This document shows positions 18,301-20,299 of a stretch of DNA of 64,000 bases, piece after piece (the first letter of the stretch is position 1; each line of letters starts with the position of its first letter). The DNA comes from Pseudidiomarina homiensis. Its GTDB lineage: Bacteria > Pseudomonadota > Gammaproteobacteria > Enterobacterales > Alteromonadaceae. A model generated the notes under the pieces. It made no database searches. It was given only the letters and a program-made list of their open reading frames with translations, and was not told where the DNA came from. The stretch is taken from positions 806,001-870,000 of the forward strand of contig NZ_PIPX01000001.1 of the NCBI RefSeq assembly GCF_003987225.1, given 5' to 3'. Position numbers and translations under genes: made by a program.

Positions 18301-19233
18301 TTAATCTTCGGCGGGCTTGTTCAGCTTTAGCTTACGACGGCTTGCGCCAGCTTCTTGAGGCTTTTTAGCGTGTCGAGATTGTGCCCAAGGCGACTCTGCT
18401 TTGGTTTCAGCTCGCTTACCACGCGGCGCAGGCTTGAGGCCATCTTTACCCACATTTTTTTGTTTAACTTTCTGCGGAGGCTTACGGCGACGATGGCCTT
18501 CTGGCGCTTCCGAAGATGAGTGCTCTATCGACTTCATCAGCTCGCTCATTTCGCTGTCAGTTAGGTTACGCCACTGGCCCGGCTGCAAGCGCCCAAGACT
18601 GACATTCATAATCCGCACGCGCTCAAGCTTACGGACTTCGTAGCCAAAGTATTCGCACATGCGGCGGATCTGGCGGTTCATACCTTCGATCAAAATCATG
18701 CGGAAGGTGAACTGTGACTCTTGGCGTACCTTACACCTTTTCGTTTTAGTCCCAAGAATTGGCACGCCACCAGCCATACCTTTGATAAAGTCAGGCGTAA
18801 TCGGCCTATCGACCGTCACCACGTACTCTTTTTCGTGTCGATTCCCGGCACGCAATATTTTGTTGACCAAATCGCCGTTACTGGTTAGAAAAATCAGCCC
18901 CGATGAGTCTTTATCTAACCGCCCAATCGGAAAAATACGGCTCTTATGCCCGACAAAATCGACCATATTTTTCGGCTCGGAAGAGTCGGTGGTACTAACA
19001 ATGCCAACGGGTTTGTTGAGCGCAATAAAGACAAACTTTTCTTTATCGGTCGGCTTAATATTGCGACCGTTCACCAGAACTTCATCGCCAGGCATCACTT
19101 GATCACCTAGCACCGCAGGTTTGCCGTTGATTTTGACCACACCTTGCTCGATAAAGCGATCCGCTTCACGCCGCGAACAAAAACCGCTTTCGCTGATAAA
19201 TTTGTTTAACCGCTTTCCTGCCGACTCAGGCAT
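18301..19233 (-). CDS. rluF: 23S rRNA pseudouridine synthase RluF
   Basis: A 310-residue RsuA-family pseudouridine synthase. An N-terminal S4 domain ([20 protein letters not shown]) precedes the catalytic domain with [10 protein letters not shown] (catalytic Asp near 107) and the [22 protein letters not shown] block. It follows E. coli RluF, which modifies U2604 of 23S rRNA. The last 75 or so residues are a Lys/Arg/Pro-rich, low-complexity basic tail, probably disordered and RNA-binding. Confidence 0.93.
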
Positions 19234-19314
19234 AAAACCTCTGTTTGTGCTGCTAAGAATAAGAAACCATGGCTATACTCAACTTCTAAATACACGCAAG
19301 AAGGAATAAAACCG

Positions 19315-19662
19315 ATGGCTAGTGTATCAATTAATTACGTAGAGCTACCAGCAACAAACATCGCAGCCACGAAAAAGTTCTTCAGTGAAGCTTTTGATTG
19401 GCGTTTTGTCGATTATGGCCCTGACTATGCATCGTTTCTGGGCGCCGGTCTCGATGGGGGCTTCTACACCTCAGAACTTAGTGCCACCACCGCCCAAGGC
19501 AGCGTGCTCGTCGTGCTCTACAGCCCGAAGCTAGAACAAGCGCAGCAATCAGTTGAAGAAGCTGGCGGCACCGTGATTAAGCCGATTTTTGAGTTCCCTG
19601 GTGGCCGCCGCTTTCACTTCACTTGCCCCAGCGGCAACGAATACGCCGTCTGGTCAGAATAA
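19315..19662 (+). CDS. VOC-family (glyoxalase/bleomycin-resistance fold) protein
   Basis: A 115-residue single-domain VOC protein. It begins SINYVELPATNIAATKKFFSEAFDWRFVDYG and ends with GGRRFHFTCPSGNEYAVWSE, the usual second half of the fold. Many such proteins bind a metal or small ligand without known chemistry, so no reaction is assigned. An AGGAA site precedes the ATG. It is convergent with the 32-codon ORF at 19672-19770, ten bases apart. Confidence 0.85.
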   Translation: MASVSINYVELPATNIAATKKFFSEAFDWRFVDYGPDYASFLGAGLDGGFYTSELSATTAQGSVLVVLYSPKLEQAQQSVEEAGGTVIKPIFEFPGGRRFHFTCPSGNEYAVWSE

Positions 19663-19671
19663 GCACCACAA

Positions 19672-19770
19672 TTACTTGTGCGCCATCAGCGCATTAAAGT
19701 AACGGTAAAACGCCGCTTTCTTTTTCATATCGGGTTGCGTTTCTTGCTGAGTTGAATGCAGTTTTTTCAT
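19672..19770 (-). CDS. Putative SoxR-controlled 32-residue microprotein
   Basis: A 32-codon ORF starting MKKLHSTQQETQPDMKKK and ending YFNALMAHK. It has a strong Shine-Dalgarno (AAAAGGAG, seven bases before ATG) and lies about 58 bases downstream of a SoxR-type promoter on the same strand (19828-19858). It is Lys-rich with a short aromatic C-terminal segment, no signal peptide and no cysteine. No other gene on this strand follows until rluF at 19233, beyond a gene on the opposite strand. I do not recognise the family. That it is translated is inference from the ribosome site and promoter. Confidence 0.6.
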   Translation of the reverse strand: MKKLHSTQQETQPDMKKKAAFYRYFNALMAHK

Positions 19771-19827
19771 GGCATGTCTCCTTTTGATAGATGATTTGCT
19801 TAACATCTTTGATTAATAACAAGGAGC

Positions 19828-19858
19828 ATGCTAAAACCTAAACCAAGGTTTAGGTAAA
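19828..19858 (-). promoter_or_regulatory. SoxR-type promoter with 19-bp spacer and SoxR box
   Basis: On the minus strand, -35 TTTACC (19858-19853) and -10 TAGCAT (19833-19828) are 19 bases apart, the overlong spacer typical of MerR-family promoters such as E. coli soxS. The spacer and -35 edge contain CCTAAACCAAGGTTTAGG (19837-19854), an 18-bp dyad with 8-bp arms and the same layout as the E. coli SoxR box. It lies directly beside soxR and fires toward the microprotein. Confidence 0.8.
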
Positions 19859-19867
19859 GAGTTTTTT

Positions 19868-20299
19868 ATGGATTTATCAGTAGGTCAGATTGCCGAGCGT
19901 TGCGGGGTCAATGTCTCAGCGATTCACTTTTACGAGCGCAAGGGGCTTATTCATAGCTCGCGCAGCACTGGTAATCAGCGGCGCTTTGGCCGCGAGGCTA
20001 TTCGCCGAGTATCTATTATTAAAGTCGCGCAGCAGCTTGGGATCAGTTTGGAAGAGGTCGCAGAAGTCTTCGAGCCATTACCGAAATTTGGCGCACCGAG
20101 CAAAGCAGATTGGCAAAGCGTTGCTGAGCAATGGCAGCAACGCTTACAACAACGCATCGCAAAACTTCAGCGGCTCAAAGATTCGCTCACGGGCTGTATT
20201 GGTTGTGGCTGCCTCTCCATGACTGCGTGCCCGCTTTATAACGCGGACGACAAGCTCGCCCAGCAAGGCCCCGGCCCAGTTATTTTGGAGCGCTCGTAA
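19868..20299 (+). CDS. soxR: Redox-sensing transcriptional activator SoxR
   Basis: A 143-residue MerR-family regulator. N-terminal winged HTH (VGQIAERCGVNVSAIHFYERKGLI), dimerisation helix near 83-107, and the [2Fe-2S] cluster motif with C110, C113, C115 and C121 (CIGCGCLSMTAC). These are the defining SoxR cysteines. Oxidised SoxR untwists the 19-bp-spaced promoter at 19828-19858, here divergent. No soxS gene is adjacent. Its 3' end overlaps the convergent serine hydrolase by 20 bases. Confidence 0.95.
   Translation: MDLSVGQIAERCGVNVSAIHFYERKGLIHSSRSTGNQRRFGREAIRRVSIIKVAQQLGISLEEVAEVFEPLPKFGAPSKADWQSVAEQWQQRLQQRIAKLQRLKDSLTGCIGCGCLSMTACPLYNADDKLAQQGPGPVILERS

Follow-up and report, generated by a model that had tools for sequence, protein, structure and literature searches.

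A selected 32-codon open reading frame behind a SoxR-type promoter in Pseudidiomarina homiensis and its family beside soxR

The window analyzed here is a stretch of 64,000 nucleotides of Pseudidiomarina homiensis contig NZ_PIPX01000001.1 (positions 806,001 to 870,000 of the forward strand). It contains a soxR gene, a divergent promoter with a SoxR-type operator in its spacer, a microprotein open reading frame (ORF), and a convergent gene of the VOC superfamily (Table 1). The soxR product scored 205.1 bits against TIGR01950, above the equivalog cut-off of 116.9, and its translation contains the four-cysteine motif CX2CXCX5C. A serine hydrolase gene of the beta-lactamase-related family PF00144 (20280-21464, minus strand) is convergent with soxR; it fell under the cut-off for each of the 25 NCBIfam models among the matches listed (of 45).

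Table 1. Features of the soxR locus, in coordinates of the window
Feature	Position	Strand	Details and basis
VOC-superfamily gene (PF00903)	19315..19662	+	Convergent; 9 bases from the microprotein stop
Microprotein ORF	19672..19770	-	32 codons, MKKLHSTQQETQPDMKKKAAFYRYFNALMAHK; C-terminal module AAFYRYFNALMAHK; translation, homologue, selection, family
Shine-Dalgarno sequence AAGGAG	19778..19783	-	7 bases ahead of ATG; kept in sister species G018
Predicted SoxR-type promoter	19828..19858	-	-35 TTTACC 19858-19853, 19-bp spacer, -10 TAGCAT 19833-19828
SoxR-type operator CCTAAACCAAGGTTTAGG	19837..19854	.	In the promoter spacer; sequence
soxR	19868..20299	+	[2Fe-2S] MerR-family redox sensor, 143 aa; TIGR01950 and Cys motif

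The soxR-divergent arrangement described in the earlier note, with TTTACC and TAGCAT 19 bp apart and spanning an 18-bp dyad, can be read directly in the sequence. The dyad consists of CCTAAACC-AA-GGTTTAGG, with perfect 8-bp arms and two unpaired central bases, and places the form CCTnAA(n6)TTnAGG inside the 19-bp spacer between -35 and -10; control by SoxR is predicted from this sequence. In the E. coli soxRS system, soxR is divergent to soxS, the SoxR dyad lies in a 19-bp spacer, and the target is an AraC-type activator. The window shares the divergent orientation and the position of the dyad, but its target is a 32-residue microprotein rather than an AraC-type activator, and no regulon cascade is implied.

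We scanned the 2.6-Mb genome with a full promoter pattern, TTTACCTNAANNNNNNTTNAGGNNTTA, built from the window and the E. coli site. Allowing up to three mismatches gave nine sites, of which the window site had none and the other eight had three, and a reversed-pattern control at the same limit gave seven sites. The bare dyad pattern had one other exact site in the genome, within a reading frame that stays open for 724 codons or more. Weaker SoxR sites could escape such a scan; read with that limit, it suggests that in this genome SoxR may have no direct output other than soxR and the microprotein.

The ribosome site of the ORF is good, with AAGGAG 7 bases before the ATG, and the earlier description of the product as Lys-rich is fair (6 of 32 residues). 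A longer in-frame start at ATG 19806 (44 aa) was rejected: it has no counterpart in the sister-species alignment, whereas the 32-codon start and its Shine-Dalgarno sequence do. The box lies 66 bases from the ATG, compared with a family mode of 38-42 bases (36 of 64 loci). Searches of Pfam and NCBIfam with the window peptide returned no match up to E 1, and the frame divergent from soxR is a 32-aa ORF that neither collection matches, not an AraC-type DNA-binding protein. The proposal that the promoter can feed only this ORF holds over some 430 bases beyond the stop codon: the next gene, VOC-like, is convergent, and a same-strand gene starting at 19233 could be reached by read-through only. The VOC gene is on the opposite strand and so is no cistron of this promoter, and no regulated gene adjoins the ORF on its transcript in the window unless read-through extends to 19233.

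The earlier note had proposed a search for like ORFs beside soxR in related genomes, which we carried out at 160 soxR loci: 91 plus 29 of the window's family (the 29 at lower identity) and 40, part of a longer list, from the order's other families, with about 19 further low-identity soxR places of the window's family lying outside this set. An ORF of this type stood behind a SoxR box at 59 of the 91, 2 of the 29, and 5 of the 40 loci, or 66 of 160. Membership was defined by at most 75 codons, a position behind a SoxR box, the C-terminal module, and a Lys followed by the stop; the window peptide, ending in FNALMAHK, belongs to the family on this definition. The module common to the 66 loci approximates [FW]xxx[FY]xx[LV]FNx[TA]MxxK-stop. 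Among 1626 other ATG ORFs of 20-70 aa at 131 of these loci, one ended in M..K and two fitted a wider motif. The 66 distinct family sequences of the two window-family sets are 21-63 aa long (median 36) and share only the C-terminal module. The constancy of K(-1) and M/L(-4) is by construction and is not evidence, because both are in the selection rule; independent of that rule are only the profile search and the other module positions, which held N(-7) in 49, T/A(-5) in 59, F/Y(-8) in 51, and L/V/I/Y(-9) in 61 of 66 sequences, counts that overstate independent events since the rows are mutually related. The occurrence of like ORFs with a common C-terminal module at 66 of 160 soxR loci, taken with this low background and with the selection and profile results below, shows that the window ORF is not a chance frame.

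Some assignments at the edge of the family were made individually. L102, within the motif rule but ending in LLKKC, was excluded as a false member, L091 (ending in YNATFRNKP) has the look of a diverged member and was left uncounted, and L124 was counted despite one residue after the Lys. L277 (G106:C1:459249-459814) was counted as lacking the ORF; it has a soxR frame with an internal TGA and a 17-codon module remnant, with no SoxR box found, and the two may be decaying together.

The SoxR box scored 10 of 10 at 56 and 9 of 10 at 8 of the 64 ORF-bearing loci of the two window-family sets. ORF-bearing loci whose box scored 10 of 10 have 54 distinct promoters; the -35 element was TTTACC in 52 of these and TTGACC in 2, and the -10 element had the form TA...T in all 54.

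Within the genus, only 2 of 26 members carry this soxR and ORF. One is the sister species G018, with a soxR that is 98% identical and an ORF that is 78% identical; the other 24 members gave no ORF match at E ≤ 10, and G005 among them has a different soxR (53%). Across 59 relatives, a single-sequence search turned up the sister species as its one convincing relative, with further matches at E 0.4-2 in five genomes including the sister, and the family was found only on reading upstream of soxR in other genera. A 17-position profile run through 246 family genomes with position ignored had 77 matches at E ≤ 0.1, and 47 of them reached E ≤ 0.005. Of these 47, 46 were soxR-divergent (positions compared by eye), including one in G106 beside a soxR with an internal stop, and the 47th (G088, L238) lies away from soxR behind its own SoxR box. 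The 37 profile rows from genomes among those searched match by construction, whereas the dearth of strong matches elsewhere does not follow from it; the window module, with E 3.8e-4 in its own genome, is itself one of the 37. We fetched 11 of the 27 matches away from soxR: in L238 and L239 a SoxR box is present and the stop codon immediately follows the Lys, whereas the other nine lack the box, and their Lys is not directly followed by a stop (one residue more in L243). A class-wide profile search of 369 genomes gave matches at E ≤ 0.02 in five, one of them the window's own genome, the other four without a SoxR box and without a stop after the module. When six relatives were compared with Pfam and NCBIfam, the two matches, to DUF3666 (E 0.008) and to a lantibiotic model (E 0.41), were weak and fell short of the cut-off, and a PDB profile search gave two non-significant matches, the best a competence peptide (E 0.4). 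Among the papers listed in searches of the open-licence literature, we found no description of a SoxR-linked microprotein.

Comparison of the window ORF with that of G018 revealed 12.5 synonymous changes over 18.7 sites and 9.5 non-synonymous changes over 77.3 sites (pS 0.67, pN 0.12, pN/pS 0.18; Fisher p 2e-5 on rounded counts). The earlier note had named a start evolving as freely as intergenic DNA as an observation that would speak against the gene; the pN/pS value, the retention of the start and ribosome site in the sister, and the occurrence at 66 of 160 loci contradict such free change. Over 17 close pairs, three of which have no more than two changes and some of which share species, pN/pS was 0.32 for the whole ORF and 0.13 in the last 17 codons. 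C-terminal changes had no synonymous bias in several pairs, in which non-synonymous changes were the more numerous (Sd/Nd 1.5/5.5 in L096/L100, 3/4 in L018/L021, and 4/6 in L075/L079). Thr(-5) is encoded by all four codons (ACC 18, ACA 12, ACT 11, and ACG 8). On this evidence, we consider it very probable that the window ORF is a real, selected, SoxR-linked protein gene.

A VOC gene follows the ORF in 48 of the 64 ORF-bearing loci checked (47 of the usual type and another type in L138); its absence from the other 16 was judged by sequence motif. A convergent gene is the nearest long one beyond the ORF in the window, G018, L016, L059, L065, L077, and L105. Two tandem ORF copies, with no same-strand ORF of at least 70 codons within about 500 bases, occur in L024, L026, L027, and L034. 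The rest of the VOC-less loci have a different VOC-like frame (L068), a frame-broken VOC gene (L093), other same-strand frames (L018 and L073), or no near long neighbor (L062). In the tandem loci, which belong to genus g38, both copies stand behind one SoxR box, and the second copy in L027 lacks a clear ribosome site. At L238 (G088:C234), away from soxR, the microprotein is followed by a frame starting MKILAF that appears by eye to be flavin-reductase-like, and at L271 (G148:C71), beside soxR, by an ORF that by the same kind of guess is sigma-factor-like.

We also examined 80 named VOC-gene loci, the best 80 of 404 relatives. A box match of at least 9 of 10 lay within 600 bases upstream at 59 of these best 80, some by chance, and the ORF preceded the VOC gene at 16: two Rheinheimera, three Thalassotalea, four unclassified records, and one each of Bowmanella, Lacimicrobium, Psychrosphaera, Colwellia, Aestuariibacter, Alteromonas halophila, and Pseudoalteromonas. 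In the same best 80 of 404, the VOC gene followed the box directly at all 12 Halomonas/Vreelandella loci and at five from Shewanella, the other Shewanella VOC loci having no clear box. These ORF-less divergons have the same promoter type as the window, with the VOC gene about 38-50 bases after the box; they differ in that VOC is the first product there, while no VOC gene lies behind the window promoter. In the Rheinheimera-type GTDB genus g42, three loci with the ORF and three without it align through the promoter and ribosome site, and the latter have the VOC gene in the ORF's place, 39 bases from the box. Because the ORF-less g42 and Halomonas/Vreelandella/Shewanella loci have the box and then VOC, a microprotein in cis is no requirement for VOC. 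VOC is the common soxR neighbor among the window's kin, with or without a microprotein in front of it, and the suggestion that the ORF stands instead of soxS found no support in that form: among the ORFs listed for these loci, only one, in L136 (family f18), was recognized, by eye, as a SoxS-like AraC protein.

In a 160-row SoxR tree (142 columns), the ORF label needed 26 changes, at least 12 of them forced by starred branches, compared with a mean of 51 after shuffling. All 66 carriers fell within one 134-row fork (support 81/89, not starred), which includes the window SoxR. This distribution fits one old origin of the ORF with many losses, and the ORF is dispensable, because 94 of 160 soxR loci lack it and the tree needs 26 changes.

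The last 17 residues of the family are amphipathic when modeled as a helix, with a hydrophobic moment z of 5.8 against composition-preserving shuffles (72 sequences). In the window peptide itself the moment is weak, at 0.15 for the last 17 residues and 0.29 for the last 13. AlphaFold2, given 17 rows, predicted a helix at residues 13-31 with mean pLDDT 72 (91 over residues 21-30) and pTM 0.32, a credible local helix and nothing more. On an ideal helical wheel, K(-1) lies 2 degrees off the center of the hydrophobic face, a position that is suggestive only, because the AlphaFold2 helix excludes the last residue. The mean net charge of the family is +4.1 (range -1 to 9), and there is no hydrophobic run of transmembrane length (median longest run 3).

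We consider that the ORF probably encodes a microprotein that is induced by SoxR and acts in trans through a docking helix, one of a family behind SoxR boxes in the gammaproteobacteria of this order. Oxidized SoxR bound in an overlong spacer is known to open promoters in the manner of MerR, and the anatomy of the site suggests that SoxR on the dyad in the 19-bp spacer would do so here. The pattern of selection suggests that a short mRNA would then be translated from the conserved ribosome site. The protein would have a variable, mostly polar or basic N-terminal tail and an amphipathic helix of 16-17 residues ending at the C-terminal Lys, and this helix would most likely dock on a protein partner, for which SoxR itself, the system that reduces it, or a membrane complex of efflux or respiration would be candidates. 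A more far-reaching version, in which one microprotein is SoxR's whole direct output here and docks onto some cellular machine to bring about the redox response, as part of an old SoxR-microprotein module of the order's gammaproteobacteria that often has VOC behind it, is put forward tentatively, as possible though doubtful.

An alternative is that the ORF is a cis-acting leader peptide whose C-terminal residues stall the ribosome and tune a downstream gene, often VOC, the window copy having lost its operon gene. Arrest and leader peptides such as TnaC, SpeFL, and ErmCL are short ORFs with a conserved C-terminus and typically a variable N-terminus, often first in an operon. The SoxR-linked ORFs resemble them in all these respects, with VOC following at 48 of 64 loci, where a leader would have just this appearance, and other genes at L068, L238, and L271. 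However, the ORF persists, in places as tandem copies, where no gene follows: loci without a downstream same-strand gene retain the module with synonymous bias (C-terminal Sd/Nd 8/2, 9/5, 3/1, and 7/1), and tandem second copies gave 3/3 and 8/4. The spacing is not fixed either, the gap from ORF stop to VOC start varying from -23 to 123 bases over 48 loci, and the VOC ribosome sites are no more sequestered than in single-base shuffles (0.50 vs 0.52 unpaired, p 0.51). In g42, moreover, three loci show a clean absence of the ORF, with VOC 39 bases from the box. Because selection persists where a convergent gene follows, in the window and several other lineages, we favor a trans-acting microprotein and regard the leader peptide as unlikely.

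The ORF could also encode a basic amphipathic helix that lies on the inner membrane and changes its permeability or charge under redox-cycler stress, with no specific protein partner. The net charge and amphipathicity given above are what such a helix should have, but there is no transmembrane run, and polar positions are conserved. Specific docking fits better than plain lying on the membrane, because N(-7) and T/A(-5) are conserved together with the hydrophobic positions and K(-1) lies at the center of the face, and we hold the membrane-surface role to be rather improbable. A dual-function or purely regulatory small RNA with an incidental ORF would agree with the short transcript expected, which in the window may run antisense into the 3' end of the convergent gene; the synonymous-biased change and the use of several codons at conserved residues make it very improbable. 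A chance ORF behind an ordinary SoxR promoter, to which the very short length and the lack of a Pfam or NCBIfam match would be suited, is scarcely credible against the family, selection, and profile-search evidence.

The SoxR outputs known to us are regulators, pumps, and enzymes. If the SoxR-induced microprotein is the correct reading, its conserved family placed immediately after SoxR promoters would add a new class of effector, one easily overlooked as tiny genes that vary outside about 17 residues. The predicted regulon of one transcript besides soxR in the window genome would be a very small system in which to study SoxR's purpose outside enterics, and the Rheinheimera-type loci with and without the ORF offer natural comparisons. 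The earlier note proposed a new type of redox response; a small protein under SoxS control, AcrZ (YbhT), is already known in E. coli (PMC4462101). It resembles the window product as a small protein of the redox and drug response under a regulator of the SoxR pathway; it differs in being controlled indirectly via SoxS and located in the inner membrane, the window ORF standing directly behind a SoxR promoter and having no run of transmembrane length. Pos19 of Rhodobacter sphaeroides is an oxidative-stress transcript described as a small coding RNA (PMC5036791), similar in kind to what is predicted for the window ORF, but it belongs to the RpoE regulon rather than to SoxR.

Two further observations concern the surroundings of these loci. 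Between the window (18301-20299) and G018 (L001/L014), pS formed a mosaic, with 0.03 in the VOC gene, 0.25 in soxR, 0.41 in a pseudouridine-synthase-like gene, and 0.67 in the microprotein, and beyond soxR the two align poorly (43% identity); the mosaic suggests recombination around the locus. In genus g69, a conserved protein of 136 aa (M[LP]E[HQ]AVY...) starts 39-40 bases after the SoxR box at L255, L259, L262, L265, and L270, which would make it, judged by this placement, another type of SoxR-divergent target.
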